DNA of 20,662 nucleotides, from assembly GCA_030698575.1 (NCBI GenBank), contig JAUYMQ010000181.1, forward strand, positions 1 to 20,662. Direction: 5' to 3'. The DNA is from Deltaproteobacteria bacterium (GTDB lineage: Bacteria > JAUYMQ01). A model generated the notes under the pieces. It saw only the letters and a program-made list of their open reading frames with translations, was not told where the DNA came from and ran no database searches. The position numbers and the translations under genes were made by a program. Below are positions 2,882 to 17,086 of the stretch, in pieces; positions within the stretch are counted from its first letter, which is position 1; each line of letters starts with the position of its first letter.

Positions 2882-3163
2882 TTACTTCTTCTTGCGTCCT
2901 TTCCCGGACTTCGCGGCCCTTGCCTTCGCCCAGCGCTTGCGCTGCGCGGCCGCGATCCTCGCCCTGCCCGCGGCGCTGAGGCGCCGCTTGCCGCCGCGCT
3001 TCTTGGCGCCGCCGCGAGCGCCCTTCTTTCCTATGCCGGTCGTCGCCTGGAGAATCCTCTCGATGCGCTCCATCTGAGCAGCGATCTGCTTCGCTTCCTT
3101 CTGCAGTTCCTTCTTCGCCTTGCTGAGCGCCGCGCTCAGGCTCTTGCCGATGCTCGTGGCCAT
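2882..3163 (-). CDS. Small, highly basic histone-like protein
   Basis: This is a 93-residue protein. The ATG at 3163 is preceded by a strong Shine-Dalgarno (GGGGAGGAAG, about 7 bases before the start); the frame is open further upstream, but no other start has such a site. Residues 7-40 form an amphipathic, coiled-coil-like helix (KSLSAALSKAKKELQKEAKQ and onward). Residues 46-93 are rich in K, R, G and A, resembling the tails of bacterial histone H1-like proteins. The tail contains LSAAGRARIAAAQRKRWAKA (62-81), a motif I recall from uncharacterised basic proteins of several GC-rich bacteria and from some plant proteins. Binding to DNA or RNA in the nucleoid is a likely role, inferred from composition only. 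I do not recognise a named family. It sits alone between ispH and the ABC-F gene and has its own candidate promoter. Confidence 0.82.
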   Translation of the reverse strand: MATSIGKSLSAALSKAKKELQKEAKQIAAQMERIERILQATTGIGKKGARGGAKKRGGKRRLSAAGRARIAAAQRKRWAKARAAKSGKGRKKK

Positions 3164-3248
3164 GGGTCTTCCTCCCCGTAAGATTCGCCTGTAAGATTGT
3201 GCTTGCTGGATTCGGATCGCAAGGATTGTCTTGTAATGGTTGGCCTGT

Positions 3249-3276
3249 AGTGTACACGCCATCCGGGCAGTGGCAA
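3249..3276 (-). promoter_or_regulatory. Candidate sigma-70 promoter for the basic protein gene
   Basis: On the minus strand TTGCCA (3276-3271, 5 of 6 matches to TTGACA) is followed after 16 bases by TACACT (3254-3249, 4 of 6 matches to TATAAT). Transcription would begin near 3242 and leave a leader of about 80 bases before the ATG at 3163. The surrounding 285-bp gap (3164-3448) has no credible gene. Its part at 3295-3350 is notably richer in A+T than the rest of the window. Confidence 0.45.
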
Positions 3277-3399
3277 TGGGAGAGAAGCCTGGAATGATCA
3301 AATTCTTGGAAAAGTTAGTGACGAAGGCGGGATTTTACAAAGTATTTGTACAAGTCGCCGTGCACTCAAACAGCCAGTTATCAGGAACTCACCGTGATC

Positions 3400-5665: not shown

Positions 5666-7462
5666 TCAACGGGCCGCGGGGCTGCCGTTGCGCGGGGGAG
5701 GAAGCGCATCGGTGCCCCGAAGCGCGCGCAGCCTGTCCCGCTCTCGCCTGAGTTCACCGTCGAAAGGCGCCTCCCGCAGCATCTCTTCCAGCATGCGCGA
5801 GGCCTCGGCCTCCCTGCCCTGTCTGGCGCGCAGCCGCGCGAGCGCGAGCTTCAGGCTCCTGCGCTCGGGCGCCCATTCCGCCGCCGCTTCCAGCGCGCTC
5901 TCGGCGGTTTCGAGGTCGCCCGCCTCGATCGCCATCCCGCCGCGCACCTCGAGTCCCAGCGCGCTGTCCGGATGCGCGGCGAGCCCTTCTGCCACGAGCG
6001 CTTCCGCCTCCTCGAACCGCCCCTCCTCGATCAACGTGATGGACACGTTGAAGAGCGGCCATTCATAGACCTCGGGATAGCGCCCCCGCTTCGTCACGAG
6101 CACGGCAAGCAGGATCAATATCAGAGCGGCGGCGAGCTTGACGAAGGCGCGCCGGCGGACCAGATGGACGAGTCCCCCAAGGCCGACCCCCGCGAACACC
6201 GCAAACAGCGGCAGCGCGACAATGCGGTAACGACCGAGGATGAAGAAGACGATCACCGAGCCGGCATGCCCCAGAAACAGGAGCAGCTCCGCCGAGCGGG
6301 CGCGCCAGAGCGGGATCGACAGCACCAGCCCGAGAACGCTCAGCGCCGCGATCGGACCCATCCCCGGCAGGGGAAGCCGGAGCGGCGCGAAGCGGGGACG
6401 GAAGAAGAGGTAGGGGTGTGTGTCGGGCTGCTCGAACTCCGAGAAGTAGAGCAGCCCTTTTCTCACGAGATTCTTGAAGGCTGCGGCGGGCGAGTCGCGC
6501 CAGTAGGTGAGCCCCTCCCCCAGCCAGAAGGCGGAAGTCGACGAGCGGCTCATCAGCCGCCCCGTCCGGCGCTCCGCTTCGGCCCTCCAGTCCATCTCCT
6601 CGAATCGCAGATCATCACGCAGCCAGGGCTGCGGCATGAAAGTGCCCGTCTGGTTCTCCGGGTTGTTCCCGATGAAGAAGTTCGGCCCCGACTGGCCGGG
6701 GGTGATGGTCCAGTCTCCGAAGACGGCCCGGTTGCGAAGCGCCGTGGCGCCGAAGACCAGCATGATGCCGGCGAGGAGAAGCGCTATTGCGGCCCCCGCG
6801 CGCACTCCGCGCGGCCGGGCGAGAAGCGGAACTGCCAGCGCCAGCGGCAGGACGAGAAGAACGTTCCCGCGGAGGAGAACGGCCGCGGCCAGCGCGGCGC
6901 CCGCGCCGGCCACGCGGCCCTTGCGCCCCTCGGCAACGCCTGACGCCAGCAGCCATGCGCCCAGCGTGAACAGGAACATGCAGAGCGGCGATTTCTCGAG
7001 AAGGCCATCGTAGAAAACAGCCACGGGAGAGAGCGCCACGAGCGCGGCCGCCGCCACGCCCGCCACGGGACCCGCCATGCGGCGGGCCAGCGCCCAGGCC
7101 AGAAGCGCGGAGAGCAGCCCCAGGATCGATTGCGCCACCAGCGGCGCCGCGGGCGACATGACGGTGAGCTTCATCACGCCGGCCACAAAGAGCGCGTAGA
7201 GCGGATCCTGAAACGAAACGCGGATCCCCCAGGGACTTCCCGCGAGTATCTCCTGGGCGGCGCGGTAATAGACGTGGCCGTCCCCACCCAGGATGAGCTC
7301 GCGCCAGTAGGGCCAGCCAAGGAGCGCCTGGAAGTAGGCCGTTCGTAGCGCAGCGCCCGCGAGTAGTACGAGCCCGAGCGCCAACATCTCGCCGCCGCGC
7401 GCCCGCTGCACGGCAGGAATCGCGACCGCCGCGGGGCGGCGCGCCTTAGCGGGCGTGCTCAT
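5666..7462 (-). CDS. GT-C type membrane glycosyltransferase with C-terminal TPR domain
   Basis: This 598-residue integral membrane protein resembles the ArnT/PMT_2 type of GT-C glycosyltransferase, which moves a sugar from a polyprenyl-phosphate donor on the outer face of the inner membrane. After a basic N-terminus, about 10-11 hydrophobic helices span roughly 24-46, 87-125, 134-176, 187-244 and 368-456. The first extracytoplasmic loop has LGGDGHVYYRAAQEILAG, with D61 in the place of the family's catalytic acid. A large loop (about 246-366) contains GQSGPNFFIGNNPENQ. GRYR is at 410-413. Residues 468-575 are soluble TPR hairpins, for example EGRFEEAEALVAEGLAAHPD, probably outside the cytoplasmic membrane. 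The ATG at 7462 lies inside tmk; the reading frames overlap by 17 bases, suggesting translational coupling. The acceptor is unknown. An O-antigen ligase-like or mannosyltransferase role is possible. Confidence 0.8.
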   Translation of the reverse strand: MSTPAKARRPAAVAIPAVQRARGGEMLALGLVLLAGAALRTAYFQALLGWPYWRELILGGDGHVYYRAAQEILAGSPWGIRVSFQDPLYALFVAGVMKLTVMSPAAPLVAQSILGLLSALLAWALARRMAGPVAGVAAAALVALSPVAVFYDGLLEKSPLCMFLFTLGAWLLASGVAEGRKGRVAGAGAALAAAVLLRGNVLLVLPLALAVPLLARPRGVRAGAAIALLLAGIMLVFGATALRNRAVFGDWTITPGQSGPNFFIGNNPENQTGTFMPQPWLRDDLRFEEMDWRAEAERRTGRLMSRSSTSAFWLGEGLTYWRDSPAAAFKNLVRKGLLYFSEFEQPDTHPYLFFRPRFAPLRLPLPGMGPIAALSVLGLVLSIPLWRARSAELLLFLGHAGSVIVFFILGRYRIVALPLFAVFAGVGLGGLVHLVRRRAFVKLAAALILILLAVLVTKRGRYPEVYEWPLFNVSITLIEEGRFEEAEALVAEGLAAHPDSALGLEVRGGMAIEAGDLETAESALEAAAEWAPERRSLKLALARLRARQGREAEASRMLEEMLREAPFDGELRRERDRLRALRGTDALPPPRNGSPAAR

Positions 7463-8087
7463 CGAGATAAGCCTGCACCGAATACCAGATTCGCGCCTCC
7501 ACTTCGGCGGGTGTACCGGAGGCGTCCAGGCGCCGGATGGCGGGGTCGTCGAAGCTGTCGAAAAGCGCGGCCACGCGGGTCAGATATTCCGTTGACTCAT
7601 AAGAAGCCTCTACCCCCTCCGGGCGCCCGCGCGCGATGCGTTCGAGACTCGTGGCGGGATCGATGCGCAGCAGAAGGACAAGATCGGGACGCGGGAAGAG
7701 CGCCTCGTTCATCTCGCGGATCCGGACCGGATCGAGGCCGAGGGCGCCCTGGTAAGCCATCGTCGAAAAATAGTATCTGTCGGTGACAACAATTTTCCCC
7801 GCGTTCAGCGCGGGACGGATGGTGCGCTCCACGTCTTCCATCCGATCGCGGAGAAACCAGTCCAGTTCGTCCTCCGGCGGAACATCCCGTCGCCCCTGCC
7901 TGGCCAGCCGCCGGATGCGCTTGCCCCACTCGCCCTCGGTGGGCTCGCGGGTCGACGCTACCGGCCAGCCCGCGGCCTCGAGGCCCGCCGCCAGGTTACG
8001 CGCCTGGGTGCTCTTCCCCGTGCCGTCGATGCCCTCGAGGGCCACGAGGACGCCCTTCTCGAGCCTCCCCGGCTTCGCGACGCCCAT
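7446..8087 (-). CDS. tmk: Thymidylate kinase (dTMP kinase)
   Basis: It phosphorylates dTMP to dTDP with ATP for DNA synthesis. With the ATG at 8087 the protein has 213 residues, the normal length. The P-loop is GIDGTGKST (19-27), the substrate motif TREPT (46-50) replaces the commoner TREPGG, DRY is at 103-105, and AYQGALG (111-117) follows S108. The P-loop has no arginine, so the catalytic arginine should come from the lid, where R150, R153 and R155 lie. The frame stays open further upstream with another ATG at 8117. I chose 8087 because AGAGGCGGTAAGAGG precedes it and little sequence then comes before the first strand. It is divergent from the mS38/bS22-like gene and overlaps the membrane glycosyltransferase gene downstream by 17 bases. 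The TREPT(E/D)G variant resembles dTMP kinases of Myxococcota-like bacteria, from memory. Confidence 0.94.
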   Translation of the reverse strand: MGVAKPGRLEKGVLVALEGIDGTGKSTQARNLAAGLEAAGWPVASTREPTEGEWGKRIRRLARQGRRDVPPEDELDWFLRDRMEDVERTIRPALNAGKIVVTDRYYFSTMAYQGALGLDPVRIREMNEALFPRPDLVLLLRIDPATSLERIARGRPEGVEASYESTEYLTRVAALFDSFDDPAIRRLDASGTPAEVEARIWYSVQAYLDEHAR

Positions 8088-8228: not shown

Positions 8229-8257
8229 TTGACAAAGGAAGGGCTGATTCCTATACT
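8229..8257 (+). promoter_or_regulatory. Near-consensus sigma-70 promoter for the mS38/bS22-like gene
   Basis: TTGACA (8229-8234) is a perfect -35, followed by a 17-base spacer and TATACT (8252-8257), 5 of 6 matches to the -10 consensus. Transcription should start near 8264, giving a leader of about 46 bases before the TTG at 8310. It is the best promoter match I found in the window and suits a highly expressed ribosomal gene. Confidence 0.8.
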
Positions 8258-8309
8258 CCGGCGGCCTCGGATGCCCGAGAGCACCCACCAGGACCCCAGG
8301 AGAATCTCA

Positions 8310-8405
8310 TTGGGAAGCGTAGTTAAGAAGCGGCGGAAGAAGATTCGCAAGCACAAGCAGAAGAAGCTCCGCCGGAAGATGCGCCACCAGCGCCGCAAGC
8401 GCTAG
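8310..8405 (+). CDS. AURKAIP1/COX24-domain mini protein (mS38/bS22-like ribosomal protein)
   Basis: A 31-codon gene reads TTG GGA AGC GTA GTT and ends at TAG (8403-8405). The product begins MGSVVKKRRKKIRKHKQ and ends MRHQRRKR; almost every residue is K, R, H or Q. This is the short AURKAIP1/COX24 family (DUF1713). Its mycobacterial member (GSVIKKRRKRM at the start) is ribosomal protein bS22 of the small subunit, and its mitochondrial relatives are mS38. By homology it should bind 16S rRNA near the decoding region. The TTG start is supported by AGGAG 7 bases upstream, the strong promoter at 8229-8257 and the exact match of the GSV(V/I)KKRRK start. Automated callers often miss genes this short. 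The last four bases, CTAG, overlap the giant TPR gene's stop on the other strand. Confidence 0.9.
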   Translation: MGSVVKKRRKKIRKHKQKKLRRKMRHQRRKR

Positions 8406-11400
8406 GGCGCCGCCTCGACGGTATCCAGATATATCTCCTCCGAGATGAACGCCAGAAGCCCCCGCGCTGCGCGGGAGGCCGCCAGCGCTGCGCTGATCGA
8501 ATCGCGATCGGGATCGATCTCGGACAATCCCTGTTCGCGTGACGCGACGCCGAAGAGCGCTCCGCCGGGATCCCGGCCTGCGATGAGCGCCGCGCGATCG
8601 GCCGTCCGCGCGTGCGCGGCTGCCAGGCAGGCCAGCGCTTCATCATCAAGAGATTCCAGTTCAGCGAGGACCTTTCGCACCCGCCGACGGTTTTTCCAGG
8701 TGACCGCCGTCCCGGCCACGCCGGCGCCGGTCTCCCTCTTCATACCCTGCGGACCCCTATCGAGCCCCGCGGCCTTCCTGAGCGCCGCAAGCGCGACGCG
8801 TAGCGAAGGCGCGCCGCAACCGGCCGGCCCTTGCTCCAGCGCGATGCGGGCCGCCACACGGTGGCAGAGATATCTCCAGACAGACCCGGCCAGCCGGCTG
8901 ATCTCTTCCTCGCGGGCGCCGATGGCGATGCGTTCTCCGCCAAGAACGACGAGCGGCTCGCCCGGTGAGGGGAGTGCGAGGACAGGAAGCTCGAGAAGCC
9001 CCCATTGCCTCAGAACTTCGCCGAGCGTCTGCGCTCGTTCGCCGAGGGCGGCGGGGCCAGCCCCGGCCGGGGCATCCGGCAGAAGAAGGCTCCATCCGCC
9101 CTGGAGCGCCTCGATGAGGGGTGCGAGATCAAGGGGCGCATCGAGGGCTTCGCGAAACGGGCCGCGCTGCTGGAAGCGATCCCGCCACGGCAGGAAGTCT
9201 CGCTCCGCCGGCGCCTCTGAGGCCGGGCTCTCCCAGACCGGGCTGGTCTCTCCGCCAAGGAGGCGATGGATCGCAGCCACGTCGCGGCAGCCCCCCGTTC
9301 GCCGCTGGAACCAGTAGATTCCTCCCAGGCCGCGCCATGCGGAAGCGCGTAGCGGCTCCTGCTCAATCAGGCTCCGGTAGACCACCGCAGCCTCGCCGTA
9401 AGTATCGGCGCTCCCCGAGAGGATCTCCGCGAGCCGCTCCTTCAGCTTCGCGTTACCGGGCTCGAGCGCCATGAGCGCGCGCAGGCTTCGCGCAGCCCCC
9501 TCGGGCTCGTAGAGCCTGTCGGCGTAGACGTCAGCAAGCCGCGAGAGGAGCGGCAGGTGGGCCTCGCATGGCTCCACCCGCTCGAAGTAAGCCTCGATGA
9601 AGCCCGCCAGCCGCGGCCAGTTCTCCCGCGCCTCGCAGATGGCCACGGCCAGTTCCACGGCCGCCAGCCCGTCTCCAGGCAACTCGATTGAGCGGCGCAG
9701 GCAACCGAGAGCGTTCTGCTCTTCGCCGAATCCTTCCCACCACACGCGACCAAGGTCGCTCTGGTCGCGGGCGTCCTCACGGAGGCCGGCGAGTGATTCG
9801 AGATAGGCGCCCGCCTCGCGCCATGAACTCGAAGCGAGCGCGTGATCTGCCAGGCGGCGGAGACTGTCAGTGTGATCGGGGTGGGCCGAGAGCGCTTCGC
9901 GAAGCCAACCGTAGGCGCGGGGCTTCTGGCCGTCGATGGCATCGAGGATCTCGGCGCCGTGATAGAGAGCCTCGGCGCGCAGCTCATCGCTCGGCGCCGC
10001 CATGGCGGCTTCCCGCCAGGCGGTCGCGGCTTCCACGCCACGGCCGAGAGACGTCATCAACTCTGCCCGGAGCAGCCGGAGGTCGTACCGATCGGGCTCT
10101 GCGCCGAGGGCGCCCTCGGCTGCCACGAGCCCCGTTTCGGGCCGACCGAGCGCCTGCTCGGCCCTCGCGATGCCGTGGAGCGCAGCGGTTCGCTCATCGC
10201 TTGCGATCCCTTGCGCATTGGCCACCCGGGTGTGCGCATCCCTTGCGCTCGCCCACTCCCCGGCCTGCAGATAGAGACCGCCGAGCGCCTGCCATGCGTC
10301 GGTCAGCGCGGGCGCAAGCCTCACGGCCTTCGTGAGCGCGCGAACTGCTGCGTCGCTCTCGCCGAGCTGGCTATGCGAAAGGCCGAGCATCAGGGCAAGG
10401 CCGGCCGTCCGCCGACGCCCCCGCCCATCGCCGTCAAGCGCGAGCGCGCGGGAAAGATGGGCGCAGGCCGATTCATGATCGCCGCGCTGGTGTTTGATCT
10501 CGCCGAATCGCGCGAGTGCCTCGTTGCATCCGCTGTCGAGCGCAATCGCGCGCTCGTAGCAGGCCTCTGCCCGCTCCAGGTCGTGCAGCTTGTCCTGACA
10601 GATCACCCCGAGATCGGCCGCGAGCGCCGCCGCGCCACGGCCCACAGGCATGCCGTTCAGGAGCCGCTCGAGGGATGCAGCCGCGCCCTCGAAGTCCCCC
10701 TCGCCCTCGTACAAGCGGCGGAGAGAGGCAAGGCCGGCCGCCATGCCCGGATTGATCGACACCGCATCTTCGAGAAACGCGATGGCGCGCGCCGGATCTC
10801 CGGCCTGCTCGCAGGCCCCGGCCATGCGCGCCAGCACCTCGCTCCGCGCGTTGGCGTCGGAAGTGATTTCAGCCAGGCGCCCCAGGGCGTTCAGATGGTC
10901 TTCGAGCCTCCCCAGGCGCGCGTGCAGGGCGGCGAGTTCATCGAGTACGGGTGCGGCGTCGGTGCCAGGCACGACGGCCCGCTCGTAGCTCTGGATTGCG
11001 TCCTCGGGTCGTCCGACGGGCCCCGCTTCAAGGCGCGCGCGCTCGAGACAGATCTCCCCTTCGCGCGCTTGTGACGGATCGAGCGATAGCTCGCGCCCGA
11101 GAGAGCGATGGAGCGCCTCGTGGTCTTCGAGAGCCCGGTAGAGATCCTGCTGTTTCCGGAGAGCCCCGAGGTGATCGGGCACGAGGGCGAGCGCTCGCTC
11201 ATACTCGGCGGCGGCGGCGGCCAATGCGCCGAGATGCTCCTCTTCGATCACCGCGAGATCCAGAGAAAGCGAGAGCAGCCTCTCGTCGTCGACGGGGGTT
11301 TCGCGTTCGCAGCGGAGCATCGCGGCCAGGTCGTGCCAACGCGCGAGCCTTCGGTAGAGCGACTGAAGGCGGTGCATGCACTCCACCGCCGCCGGCTCGC

Positions 11401-14400
11401 GGCTGAGCCAGGCCTGGTAGGCCGCCACGGCCTCGTCGAACCGCCAGAGACGCGCCTCCGCCAGTTCTCCGAGCGCCGCGTAGAGCGACGGCTTTTCGTC
11501 CTCGGCAGCAATCTCGATCATCTCCTCGAGGAGCCGGCGGGCTTCCTCGAAACGCCCTTCCCTTTCGAGCAGTTCCAGAAGCGCCGGCCGGGCGTTCGCG
11601 CCCTGCTCCGGCGTGGCGCCCTCATCCAGCAGCGCGTAAAGGTGCTCGATGGCGCGCGGCCGCTCGGCGGGATGCGGCGCGAGGAGATCGGCCTGGCGCT
11701 GCCGCAACCGGACTCGCCGCGCCGGATCGGGCGTGCCCGCGATGAGCCGCTCGATCGCCGCCGCGCCGTCGCGCCAGCGCCCGAGTGCGGGCGCGCTTTC
11801 CGCCACCGCGTTGAGCGCGTCCGGGGTGTCGGGTTCGATGGCCAGGATGCGCATCCAGGCGCCCAGGGCGCGATGGGGGTCCTTGAGGCGCGTCTCGCAA
11901 AGGCGCGCGAGCACCCGCAGTCGCGCCGTGACGCCGGCGCCGCGGCCGGAGACCCGCGTTTCGATCAGATCGGTCAGCGACCGCCATTCACTCCGCGCTT
12001 CCAGCAACCGCTCGAGGCGATCCTTCGCGTCGCCCGAGCCGGGATCTGCTTCGATCCACATCTTGCAGTACTCCGCCGCGCGGCCCGTCCGGCCCAGCGA
12101 TTCCTCCCAGAGACGGGCCAGCGTCGAGAGGACGAACGTGAGTTCATCCCGCGGCGGCGGGAGCTCCAGGTAGATCTCCAGCGCCTCCACCGCGCCCGCC
12201 CCGTCCCCTTTCAGGAGCGAAAGATCCGCAATTGCGCGCAGCAATTCAGCCTCAGGCGCGCCGAGATCGAGCGCCCGCCGGTAGTGCGCCAGTGCTCGCG
12301 CGCTGCGCCCGGGCAGTTCCCTCAGCGCGCCGGCCGCTTGCAGACGCAGCGACCGTTCCTCGTCGAGCGAGGTAGCTAATAAGATTCGGCGCTCGCAGAG
12401 CGCGGCCAGATCTTCCTTCCGGCCCTGCAAATTAAGAATTCGAGCGAGCGCGGCATGCGCGGCGTGCCCGCCAGGGGCGCCGGCGCCGTCGTCGAGAGCC
12501 CGGCGATAGGCCTGCTCGGCAAGATCGATTCGATCGGTCGCCTCCCAGGCTGCGCCGGCGGCGGCCCGGAGATCGACGGCTTCCACGCCCGATCGGATGC
12601 GAGCGGCGCGATTCTCGAGGTGCGCCCCCAGAGCATCGTGGGCGCCCATGCGCTCCAGCAAGTGCCGGCGCTCTTTGAAGCGCAGAGCGCCTTCGGGATC
12701 GAGGTCGCAGGCGCGGCCGTAGGCTTCGGCCGCTGCGGCGTTGTGCCCCCCGGAATCCGGCTCGGCCGAGAGATAATCGCCATAGCGCGCCCATATGCCG
12801 GCGGCTTCGCGGCACCCCATCGGATCAGAGGGTTCGCCGACATCCTTCAACAGGTCCGGGTAGAGATCCGCGAGCGAGCGTCGATCGCCGAGCCGCGTCC
12901 AGAGCGCCTCGAGCTTCAACGCGACACGGCAGCGGGATGCGACCCCTTCCGAAGCCGCCAGCGCCTGACGGTAGGCGTCTGCCGCTTCGGCCGACTCCTT
13001 CAGATGATCAGCCAGCAGATCCCCCAGACGCTCGCAGTCAGCGGCGCGCCGTCCGCCCTCCTCGGGGACCGGCAGCACCTCGATCCGCTCGCGCAGGATT
13101 CGCGCCAGGGTGCGGTGGCGGTGATGGGTTACTGCGAGGCGCTCAAGCAGGTCGCGGGCATCCTCATTCGAGGGATCGAGCTCGAGTGCGCGCTCCAGCT
13201 CGCCCATTGCGTCGTGATCACGGCCGAACTTCGTGTGGAGAATGACGGCGGCGCGGTAAGTGGCCGCCGCCCGCAGGTGCTGCCCGGATTCCTCCCTTGC
13301 AAGCGTTTCGAGGACGCCCAGCAGTTCCTCCCACCTTCGCTCGTCTTCACATAGCCGCGCCATCGCCCTGAGCGACGGAAGCGAAGCCGGATCGATCTGG
13401 CGGGCCTGGCGGTAAAGGATCAACGCCTGGTCAGGCCGGTGAAAACGCTCTTCCCAGAGGGTGGCGAGCTGGAGCGTGACGTCCATCTGCGCTTCCGTTC
13501 CCTCGGCGAGGGAAAGGCGGCGCGAGAGGGCATCGAGCAGCTCATTGTAGCGCCCGGCTGCCTCGAGGCGCGTTCCCATGACAGCCAGGACGTCGTCACT
13601 CTCGGCGCCGAGATCCACTATCTGCTTGCAGACGTCGATCGTGCGAGCATGGCCGGCGGCTTCCGCGCCTTCACTGGCCAGCGCAACGCGGAAGGCCTCG
13701 CGGGCAAGGGCGATTCTCTGTTCGGGCTCCTCGGCGACAGCGAGCGACGATTCGATGAGACCAGACAGCCCCTCGAGATCGCCGCGCGCCTCCAGGCGCC
13801 GGAACAGGCGCGCCTGGGCTTCGGTATGCTCGGGCACTGCTGCGATTACCTCGCGAAGCGTCGACTCCGCCCCGGCCGCCTCATCGAGGGCGGTTTCCTG
13901 AATGTGCGCAATTTCGACCAGGGCATCTCCCCAGGTGTACGGAGCGACCTCGCGCTGCCGATCGGCCTCCTCACGCAGGAGCCCGACGAGTTCATCCCAT
14001 GCCTCGCTTTTGGCCAGCGCGCGGTGCAACTGCTGTTGCACGGCTGGATCCCCGGGACGGGCAACTGCGACGGCGCGGTAGTGAGTGAGCGCCCTGGCGC
14101 CCTGTCCGAGTCTTTCCTCCAGGATTTCCCCGAGCGAGAGGTGGAGTGCCAGCGCGCGCCGGGGTTCCGGCGAGCACGCGAGCTCGTCCTCGACGAGCCT
14201 CGCGACCTCCGCCCAGCGCCCGGCCCTTTCATAGTGATCACGGAGTCGCTCCCGGGCCATGTCGTTCCCTGGCGAGGCAGCGAGCGCTTCCTCCCACAGC
14301 GAGACGGCACGGTCGGCATTGTCCAGCGGCCCTTCCCAGAGGGCGGCTCGCGCCCCGGCGATCTCGCCCCGGCGGGCACCCTCTCCCGAAAGATCCGCCT

Positions 14401-16591
14401 CGCGGGCCAGCAGCCCGTCGAGCGCCTCCCAGCGCTCAAGTTTGCGATAAAGATCGCCGAGTGCCCGCAGGGTGTCCGGACACGCCGGTGCGAGGACGAG
14501 CGCCTCTTCCAGGCTCACCGTGGCGCCCGCGAGATCTGAAAGCCGGCTTTCGAGGACGTGCGCCCGCTCGATCAGGATCTCGGCCTTCTCGTCGTCCGCC
14601 GCGATCTCCGCGCGCCGGCCCAGCAGCTCCGCCAGCGCTTCCCACCTGCCGAGCGCCGGGTAGAGCCGCTGGAGCCCCTCGAGCGCCGGCGGGGTGGTGG
14701 AATCGATCACCAGCGCCCGCTCGTAGGCGGCCACTGCCTCTTCCGGATCGTCGCAAGCCGTTTCGTAGAGCTTGCCCGCGCGCACGAGCAGGACCAGCCT
14801 GGTCGCCGGCGCCTCCTCGATCTGGGAAGCCTTCATCACGACTGCCAGGAGCCCCTCGTCGTCGCCCAGCTTTTCGTAGAGTGCGGCCAGAGCTCTGAGC
14901 GCTCCCCGGTGTGCGGGATCGCGGGAAAGCAACGCTTCCCAGCAAGCCAGCGCCTCATCGGCCCGCGATAGCGCCGTGGCGTCCAGCGCCACGCGCTCGA
15001 GAAGAATCATTTCGCGCTCGGGATCGCGCCCCGGATTTTCGAGCGTCTCTTCACAGAGCAAGCTGAGCTCGGTCGCCGCGGCTTCCCGCTCCTCGGCGAT
15101 CTCGCCACGGGCCTCGTGGATGGCCTGGAGGCGGGCGAGGACGAAGAGGTCATCTGGAAGCAGCTGGCGGGCGCTCCTGTAGGCGTCGATGGCCGTGCTT
15201 TCCTGGCCGACCGCCTCGAGGGCCTGCCCGGCCTCGCGCCAGGCCTCTCCCCGCTCGGCGTCGGGCGTGCCGGAAGGGAGCGCCCCTGCCAGCCGCAAGA
15301 GCTTTCGCGCACGATCGTGCGGGCGGCCCATCCGGTCGTAGAGATCGCATAGCCGTTCGAGCGCGGGCGCCTGTATCGGATCGCGGGCAAGGACAGCCTC
15401 GAGTGCGGCCGCCGCCTCCTCGTCGCGGCCTCCGAGGTTCTCGAGGATCCGGGAGCGTTCGTCGCAGATCGCAATCGCCTCGGCGTCGGTCTCGAAAAAT
15501 CCGGCGCGCTCCCGCAGGCCGAGAATGTGCGCCAGCGCGGAGCTCTCACCGGCCGCTCGCGCGAGCCGCTCCGCAGCGGCGAGTGCGGCGGAATCACCGA
15601 CGTGATGATCGAGGATCGATCGCCAGGCTTCCAGTGCGCGAACCGGATCGCGAAGTTGCTGCTCGAGCAGTTCCGCCCGCTCGCGGAGCGCGGCGTCGGA
15701 CCCGGCCCCCCCCTCCGTGGCCGCCGCCTGAAGCGCCTCGACCAGCGATTCCCAGCGCTCGCCCTGGCGGTAGAGGCCGATGAGCGCCACCCGACTGCGG
15801 GCGGCAAGATCGTCGGGCGGAGAAAGCGTGAAAATCCGTTCATGACAGGCGATGGCGCGTTCGATCACGCCCGGCTCACCCGCCAGGTCGTTCGCGTAAA
15901 GCGCTGCCGCGCGCTCGAGAAGCTCCGGACCTTCCGGCGAGTGCCCCGCCTCTGCTTCAAGAAGCTCCGCCAACCGCGCATGTCGCCCGAGGCGTTCGAG
16001 CAGCGCGTAGAGCGCCTGGAACGTTTCGCCACGTTGCGGATCCGTCTCGAGAGCGTGCTCGTATACGGCAACGGCCGCTTCGGTGCGGCCGAGCTGCTCC
16101 TCCAGCACCTCGGCGTGGCGGATCTGAACGGAGAGGCGATCGGCGGCGTTGTTCATCCTGGGAGCGATTTCCTCGAGTAGCGTCGCGACCTCCTCCCAGC
16201 ATCCGGAGGCCTCGAGAATCCGCTCGAGCCGGTGACGCGCATCGGTGTCGCCCGCATGCTCGTTGAGAGCCTGCCGGTAAGCTCGGGCGGCATCTTCCGG
16301 CCTGGAAAGTCGCGATTCAAAAATGTGGCCCATGCGTCCGAAGATCAGCGCGCGCTCGGCCCGGTTCACGATGGCCTCGGTTCGCTGCTGATAGACGTCG
16401 AGCAATGCCTCCCAGGCTCCGGTCTTCTTCAGGCGTACTTCCACCGAGCGAAAGGCCGGCAGGCCGGCCGGGTCTTCCTGGAACAGCCGGAGGCAGCGCC
16501 GGGTTGCCTCGTCCAGCGCCGCTTCCCCGGCTGCGGCGCCTTCCCGAACTTCCGCCGGGTCGGCCGGTTGCTTCTCGTCAAGAACGCTCAT
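8402..16591 (-). CDS. Giant tetratricopeptide-repeat protein (2,729 residues)
   Basis: One uninterrupted frame from the ATG at 16591 (AGGAG 5 bases upstream) to TAG at 8404-8402. A GTG nine codons further up is less likely. I see no signal peptide or membrane helix, so it is probably cytoplasmic. After a charged leader of about 57 residues, residues 58 to about 2445 form roughly 33 tandem units of about 72 residues. Each is a pair of helical hairpins that typically starts with a GRWEALAELL-like helix, has an AxxxYExAL helix in the middle, then a DP turn, and ends in a LxxLYxxL helix. The last 280 or so residues lack this pattern and end ARGLLAFISEEIYLDTVEAAP-like, suggesting a separate domain. 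Large TPR proteins of similar style occur in myxobacteria, with no agreed function; scaffolding of a multi-protein assembly is the natural guess. No enzyme motif is visible. Confidence 0.9.
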   Translation of the reverse strand: MSVLDEKQPADPAEVREGAAAGEAALDEATRRCLRLFQEDPAGLPAFRSVEVRLKKTGAWEALLDVYQQRTEAIVNRAERALIFGRMGHIFESRLSRPEDAARAYRQALNEHAGDTDARHRLERILEASGCWEEVATLLEEIAPRMNNAADRLSVQIRHAEVLEEQLGRTEAAVAVYEHALETDPQRGETFQALYALLERLGRHARLAELLEAEAGHSPEGPELLERAAALYANDLAGEPGVIERAIACHERIFTLSPPDDLAARSRVALIGLYRQGERWESLVEALQAAATEGGAGSDAALRERAELLEQQLRDPVRALEAWRSILDHHVGDSAALAAAERLARAAGESSALAHILGLRERAGFFETDAEAIAICDERSRILENLGGRDEEAAAALEAVLARDPIQAPALERLCDLYDRMGRPHDRARKLLRLAGALPSGTPDAERGEAWREAGQALEAVGQESTAIDAYRSARQLLPDDLFVLARLQAIHEARGEIAEEREAAATELSLLCEETLENPGRDPEREMILLERVALDATALSRADEALACWEALLSRDPAHRGALRALAALYEKLGDDEGLLAVVMKASQIEEAPATRLVLLVRAGKLYETACDDPEEAVAAYERALVIDSTTPPALEGLQRLYPALGRWEALAELLGRRAEIAADDEKAEILIERAHVLESRLSDLAGATVSLEEALVLAPACPDTLRALGDLYRKLERWEALDGLLAREADLSGEGARRGEIAGARAALWEGPLDNADRAVSLWEEALAASPGNDMARERLRDHYERAGRWAEVARLVEDELACSPEPRRALALHLSLGEILEERLGQGARALTHYRAVAVARPGDPAVQQQLHRALAKSEAWDELVGLLREEADRQREVAPYTWGDALVEIAHIQETALDEAAGAESTLREVIAAVPEHTEAQARLFRRLEARGDLEGLSGLIESSLAVAEEPEQRIALAREAFRVALASEGAEAAGHARTIDVCKQIVDLGAESDDVLAVMGTRLEAAGRYNELLDALSRRLSLAEGTEAQMDVTLQLATLWEERFHRPDQALILYRQARQIDPASLPSLRAMARLCEDERRWEELLGVLETLAREESGQHLRAAATYRAAVILHTKFGRDHDAMGELERALELDPSNEDARDLLERLAVTHHRHRTLARILRERIEVLPVPEEGGRRAADCERLGDLLADHLKESAEAADAYRQALAASEGVASRCRVALKLEALWTRLGDRRSLADLYPDLLKDVGEPSDPMGCREAAGIWARYGDYLSAEPDSGGHNAAAAEAYGRACDLDPEGALRFKERRHLLERMGAHDALGAHLENRAARIRSGVEAVDLRAAAGAAWEATDRIDLAEQAYRRALDDGAGAPGGHAAHAALARILNLQGRKEDLAALCERRILLATSLDEERSLRLQAAGALRELPGRSARALAHYRRALDLGAPEAELLRAIADLSLLKGDGAGAVEALEIYLELPPPRDELTFVLSTLARLWEESLGRTGRAAEYCKMWIEADPGSGDAKDRLERLLEARSEWRSLTDLIETRVSGRGAGVTARLRVLARLCETRLKDPHRALGAWMRILAIEPDTPDALNAVAESAPALGRWRDGAAAIERLIAGTPDPARRVRLRQRQADLLAPHPAERPRAIEHLYALLDEGATPEQGANARPALLELLEREGRFEEARRLLEEMIEIAAEDEKPSLYAALGELAEARLWRFDEAVAAYQAWLSREPAAVECMHRLQSLYRRLARWHDLAAMLRCERETPVDDERLLSLSLDLAVIEEEHLGALAAAAAEYERALALVPDHLGALRKQQDLYRALEDHEALHRSLGRELSLDPSQAREGEICLERARLEAGPVGRPEDAIQSYERAVVPGTDAAPVLDELAALHARLGRLEDHLNALGRLAEITSDANARSEVLARMAGACEQAGDPARAIAFLEDAVSINPGMAAGLASLRRLYEGEGDFEGAAASLERLLNGMPVGRGAAALAADLGVICQDKLHDLERAEACYERAIALDSGCNEALARFGEIKHQRGDHESACAHLSRALALDGDGRGRRRTAGLALMLGLSHSQLGESDAAVRALTKAVRLAPALTDAWQALGGLYLQAGEWASARDAHTRVANAQGIASDERTAALHGIARAEQALGRPETGLVAAEGALGAEPDRYDLRLLRAELMTSLGRGVEAATAWREAAMAAPSDELRAEALYHGAEILDAIDGQKPRAYGWLREALSAHPDHTDSLRRLADHALASSSWREAGAYLESLAGLREDARDQSDLGRVWWEGFGEEQNALGCLRRSIELPGDGLAAVELAVAICEARENWPRLAGFIEAYFERVEPCEAHLPLLSRLADVYADRLYEPEGAARSLRALMALEPGNAKLKERLAEILSGSADTYGEAAVVYRSLIEQEPLRASAWRGLGGIYWFQRRTGGCRDVAAIHRLLGGETSPVWESPASEAPAERDFLPWRDRFQQRGPFREALDAPLDLAPLIEALQGGWSLLLPDAPAGAGPAALGERAQTLGEVLRQWGLLELPVLALPSPGEPLVVLGGERIAIGAREEEISRLAGSVWRYLCHRVAARIALEQGPAGCGAPSLRVALAALRKAAGLDRGPQGMKRETGAGVAGTAVTWKNRRRVRKVLAELESLDDEALACLAAAHARTADRAALIAGRDPGGALFGVASREQGLSEIDPDRDSISAALAASRAARGLLAFISEEIYLDTVEAAP
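9257..16420 (-). repeat. Protein-level tandem repeat array, about 33 units of about 72 residues
   Basis: I cut the protein by eye at each recurring GxW, GRxxxL or equivalent helix start and obtained about 33 segments, most of 70-76 residues with a few stretched to about 80. Well-formed examples begin GRWEALAELL, ERWEALDGLL, RRWEELLGVL, GRFEEARRLL and ARWHDLAAML. The units differ widely in sequence and show no near-identical DNA copies. The array is therefore old and is unlikely to be an assembly artefact or prone to slippage. Unit borders are approximate. Confidence 0.75.
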
Positions 16592-17086
16592 GCATGCTCC
16601 TGGCCCGGGCCCGCCCACGTGTCGACCTGGTGCTGGTCCGGTATGTCTTCAATCGACGAAGGGGAAAGATGGCCGCCCGCCGGCGCGGGGTTGCCGCGCC
16701 GCGGGTCAAGGGTTGCGCTGGACCTATCGCTGGTTGGAGCGGTGCCCGCGTCCAGGTCGAATTTCACCCGGGGCGAAGCCCCCCCCGTCGAAGGCCCATC
16801 CATCTGATCTTTTCGGCACAGCGCGGGGACGCTTTAAGGGAAAAGGGGTGGAGCGCGGAGGAGGGGCGCGGAAAGGGGGCCGCGCCCCCTGATTCACTGG
16901 AGAGGGCAGCGCCGGGGGGCGCGGGGAGGCCACCACCCGCGGGAATGAGGGAGCAAGAAACGTGCCGTGAGGGCGGGGCGCGGGAAGCCCGCGGCAGCCG
17001 CCAGGCGTCGAAACTCAGTGGCGGAGATCGCCCGAAAGGACGGACGCTCGGAATGCCGGAACCTGTGGACGGTGGGCGCCGCGGAT
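16592..17086. other. 495-bp region without a convincing gene
   Basis: This is the only gap above 300 bases. It is extremely G-rich on the plus strand and has short GC hairpins: GGGGC/GCCCC (16770-16774 with 16778-16782), AGGGGGC/GCCCCCT (16874-16890) and CGCGGG/CCCGCG (16979-16984 with 16988-16993). A minus-strand frame of 71 codons (16803 to 16588) ends in an ATGA overlap with the giant TPR start, but its composition is proline/glycine-rich and it matches nothing I know. No full promoter for the TPR gene was found. TTGACC on the minus strand (16709-16704) lacks a -10 partner. Confidence 0.6.
16874..16890. terminator. Seven-base-pair GC hairpin
   Basis: AGGGGGC (16874-16880) pairs perfectly with GCCCCCT (16884-16890) across a CGC loop. 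It lies between the stop of the six-TM gene (17087) and the start of the TPR gene, a sensible place for transcription to stop on the minus strand. No T tract follows, so it may only be a structured spacer. Confidence 0.3.

Follow-up and report, generated by a model that had tools for sequence, protein, structure and literature searches.

Results

Organization of the locus

The DNA analysed here (the window) is the 20,662-nucleotide contig JAUYMQ010000181.1 from a Deltaproteobacteria bacterium (the host; assembly GCA_030698575.1). Between a divergently oriented tmk gene, which lies outside the bS22 unit, and a convergent gene for a very large protein, it carries a 31-codon gene which we assign with high confidence to ribosomal protein bS22 (Table 1).

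Table 1. Features at and around the bS22 locus (positions in the window)
Feature	Position	Strand	Basis
tmk (thymidylate kinase), divergent neighbour	7446..8087	-	PF02223, E 1.9e-39
Sigma-70-type promoter, TTGACA-17-TATACT	8229..8257	+	11/12 consensus bases, read from sequence
Shine-Dalgarno site, AGGAG	8298..8302	+	7 nt ahead of TTG start
bS22 (AURKAIP1/COX24-domain) gene, 31 codons	8310..8405	+	PF08213, PDB bS22 matches, pN/pS
2738-aa TPR-repeat protein, convergent neighbour	8402..16618	-	TPR families, ORF list

Every element named in the initial annotation (a TTGACA-17-TATACT promoter, AGGAG, a TTG start and a 31-codon frame ending in RRKR) is present in the sequence, and the -35 box and the bS22 stop mark the two ends of the range 8229-8405. 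The -35 box TTGACA occupies 8229-8234 and a 17-nt spacer separates it from the -10 box TATACT at 8252-8257; transcription is predicted to begin at about 8263-8264. This is the one site in the whole window that matches at least 11 of the 12 consensus bases, and such a site occurs in one of 100 simulated windows. The frame opens with TTG at 8310 and closes with TAG at 8403-8405. Its product, MGSVVKKRRKKIRKHKQKKLRRKMRHQRRKR, is strongly basic, with K or R at 19 of 31 residues, and terminates in ...HQRRKR. By coincidence, 8229-8405 is also spanned by a mechanical ORF of 58 codons, for which the -35 hexamer supplies the “TTG”.

The 2738-residue protein consists largely of TPR repeats, and the stops of its gene and of bS22 overlap by 4 nt. 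The initial annotation had proposed, as a check, to look for conservation of the divergent tmk-bS22 arrangement in related genomes; tblastn with the window's thymidylate kinase found tmk near bS22 in none of the related loci. Genes next to bS22 are shared only inside individual lineages; one such neighbour, in Nitrospirae, is a putative SMC-like gene, identified by its N-terminal sequence. Elsewhere in the window, 2882-3301 on the minus strand encodes a small K/A-rich protein without a Pfam match, which has a histone-H1-like composition and ends in LSAAGRARIAAAQRKRWAKARAAKSGKGRKKK.

Family membership

The coding frame and its membership of the AURKAIP1/COX24 family are direct observations. Pfam COX24_C (PF08213) matches the 31-residue product at 30.4 bits (E 3.6e-7), above the curated cut-off of 23, and in a genome-wide search with the same model bS22 was the sole match in the host genome, at 28 bits. 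A phmmer search of the PDB returned bS22 chains from mycobacterial and C. acnes ribosomes; the mycobacterial protein, whose position in the ribosome is solved, is 63% identical to the peptide over 30 residues. The peptide also has the bS22 hallmark of roughly 30 K/R-rich residues with MGSV at the start and then K(K/W)R(R/K), and it aligns with 16 relatives at 55–83% identity, ungapped across 29 columns. A profile of 17 family members, the host peptide included, matches both bS22 and the mS38 of plants and mammals (E 4e-4 to 0.4). The assignment to the bS22/mS38 family, first made from the sequence alone, is supported by the Pfam profile and by the PDB matches.

The NCBIfam equivalog model ribo_bS22 (NF047430) scores the peptide at 31.5 bits, below its cut-off of 34. 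Because this cut-off is likewise missed by several non-actinobacterial orthologues, the shortfall seems to reflect a limitation of the model. As the equivalog cut-off was missed, we file the protein under the Pfam family and name it bS22 by homology.

Coding selection and alternative readings of the frame

With 31 codons the frame is small, and GC-rich DNA readily yields chance frames with many basic residues, so one might ask whether it is a fortuitous K/R-rich stretch of intergenic DNA and no gene at all. A profile built without the host sequence scored the 31-mer at 49.8 bits; when its residues were shuffled 5,000 times, the top score was 14.9 bits, so that none of these same-composition peptides came within 34 bits of it. 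When the window was scanned in six frames with the profile, the bS22 frame ranked first at 44.5 bits and the next frame scored 5.7, while the best score in 100 simulated windows was 7.9 bits. Differences from relatives concentrate at third codon positions and are mostly synonymous: pN/pS was 0.17–0.38 against 11 non-mycobacterial relatives and 0.56 against a more distant mycobacterial-type sequence. This pattern shows, within the sequences compared, that the frame is under purifying selection, and the synonymous/non-synonymous comparison proposed in the initial annotation therefore came out in favour of a coding gene. The promoter, the Shine-Dalgarno site and the start are, in addition, mutually consistent. 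A chance frame, to which we attach almost no probability, was ruled out by the shuffle and simulation scores together with the synonymous pattern of change.

Translation could in principle begin further upstream, at an in-frame ATG at 8271, and yield a product of 44 codons. ATG is the usual start codon, and no stop codon interrupts the frame between 8271 and 8310; the extension would include MPESTHQDPRR. However, the ATG has no Shine-Dalgarno site ahead of it and lies only about 7 nt past the predicted transcription start, and AGGAG is placed 7 nt before the TTG instead. Relatives all begin at M, V or L before GSV, and residues upstream are not conserved. Conservation of the start was observed directly. 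In relatives from Chloroflexi, Deltaproteobacteria, Nitrospirae and Actinomycetota the protein starts at the position used in the host (MGSV, LGSV or VGSV, in some cases MGNV or MSSV), and most have a Shine-Dalgarno-like site just upstream. Some use GTG (G012, G188, L062) or TTG (L053), and L025, L026, L028 and L039 show L at the start residue. Because relatives share this residue, some of them with GTG or TTG, we favour TTG at 8310, as originally proposed, and consider the longer product very unlikely.

It might also be supposed that this family member has departed from the ribosome and is now a free basic peptide, for example an antimicrobial one. A bS22 peptide from C. acnes, added externally, does inhibit bacterial growth and cell-free translation (PMC10085706). 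In the host protein, however, it is the positions typical of the ribosomal family that are conserved, 31 residues are too few to accommodate a secretion signal, and no export gene was seen among its neighbours in the window; we regard such a change of function as extremely improbable. We are nearly certain that 8310-8405 is a real bS22 gene with its own sigma-70-type promoter, a TTG start behind AGGAG and, by homology, a role in the ribosome.

Discussion

Comparison with known bS22 and mS38

The host protein shares its length class and its MGSV-KKRRK start with mycobacterial and Cutibacterium bS22 (PDB 5o61, 8crx and others; AURKAIP1/COX24 domain-containing protein), and its alignment with the mycobacterial protein is ungapped across 30 residues. 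Unlike these proteins, it has a non-actinobacterial central motif, KIRKHK plus MRHQRRK, and its gene starts with TTG. In addition, the host genome also encodes bS21, whereas mycobacterial ribosomes lack bS21 (PMC7470450). As described in PMC10618245, the bS22 of Borrelia burgdorferi (bb0822) resembles that of the host in its 31-codon span (867605-867697), its non-ATG start and its basic character. Mitochondrial mS38 (AURKAIP1/COX24) shares the PF08213 domain with the host peptide and was reached by the relatives' profile; compared singly with mS38, the host peptide shows weak similarity (E about 1–2). In contrast to the 31-codon bacterial product, mS38 is longer and has an N-terminal extension. 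As judged from these comparisons, the host protein is not mS38, and the two would be homologous in the domain only.

Proposed role in the ribosome

In Borrelia (PMC10618245) and C. acnes (PMC10085706) ribosomes, bS22 occupies a pocket formed by 16S rRNA helices h27, h44 and h45 (and h2) and contacts 23S rRNA as an intersubunit bridge. Ribosome binding and mechanism in the host are taken from these homologous structures. The host product would form a strongly basic helix, would sit by homology in the pocket between h27, h44 and h45, and may touch 23S rRNA once the subunits join, forming an intersubunit bridge and stabilising h44. In yeast, the mS38 protein constrains h44 and promotes initiation on the COX1, COX2 and COX3 mRNAs (PMC6582356). 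A search for 16S rRNA in the host assembly found none.

Host lineage and spread of the family

In an RpoB tree, the host grouped (support 96/97) with Deltaproteobacteria and three further genomes, apart from the actinobacterial rows, which were recognised by their mycobacterial-type bS22 and not by name. Because of this grouping we conclude that the host is not actinobacterial, which agrees with the initial annotation.

The NCBIfam model matched 26 of 386 genomes sampled domain-wide (about 7%) at E <= 0.001, 12 of them above the cut-off, and the window's own genome is among those listed. In a scan of GTDB genomes, the named holders among the matches listed belong to at least four named phyla, namely Chloroflexi, Deltaproteobacteria, Nitrospirae and Actinomycetota; the deltaproteobacterial holders are also filed as Desulfobacteraceae, Syntrophus and Syntrophales. 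The culturable deltaproteobacterium NaphS2 (L044) likewise carries a bS22. Corynebacterium glutamicum was the only one of 14 control genomes to score above the PF08213 cut-off, and the PF08213 search of the control genomes of E. coli, B. subtilis and Caulobacter vibrioides gave no match. The host phylum is sparsely sampled, being represented in the genomes searched by the host genome alone, and the known spread of bS22 now extends to it.

The implied novelty of a bS22 outside Actinobacteria lacks support, given these phyla and the published presence of bS22 in the ribosomes of Flavobacterium johnsoniae (Bacteroidetes) and Borrelia burgdorferi (spirochaetes) (PMC10618245). The Borrelia gene, with its GUG start, had previously been unannotated, and its authors predicted further such cases (PMC10618245). 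The host bS22 is one of these cases, and the family was already known.

Origin of mS38 and annotation of bS22

Because non-actinobacterial bS22 is published and about 7% of sampled genomes carry the family, the host bS22 says little that is specific about the origin of mS38. Thus, the suggestion that the gene bears on this origin retains its general relevance but not its particular link to the host lineage. We tentatively entertain, while thinking it somewhat less probable than its converse, that bS22 is an ancient ribosomal protein of bacteria, found in many phyla and under-annotated, from which mitochondria inherited mS38 rather than gaining it anew. If this is true, the sparsely sampled host phylum contributes one more data point. 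A proper survey of bS22 would make the origin of mS38 testable.

The NCBI equivalog model places many non-actinobacterial orthologues just below its cut-off, so that bS22 is probably under-annotated. Clear bS22 orthologues (L002, L003, L031, L032, L033 and others) score 21–33 bits, below the NF047430 cut-off of 34, and because of these scores automatic naming probably misses them. Two divergent, basic short frames, MPSGKKRKRRKIKKHKLRKRRRRDRHKKKLR and MNGRKAKRQKIRNHKYKKLRRRMRHKNKK, in L016 (G009) and L011 (G016, match near 1501), fall below the Pfam cut-off; their sequences suggest additional bS22 variants that lack the MGSV start.
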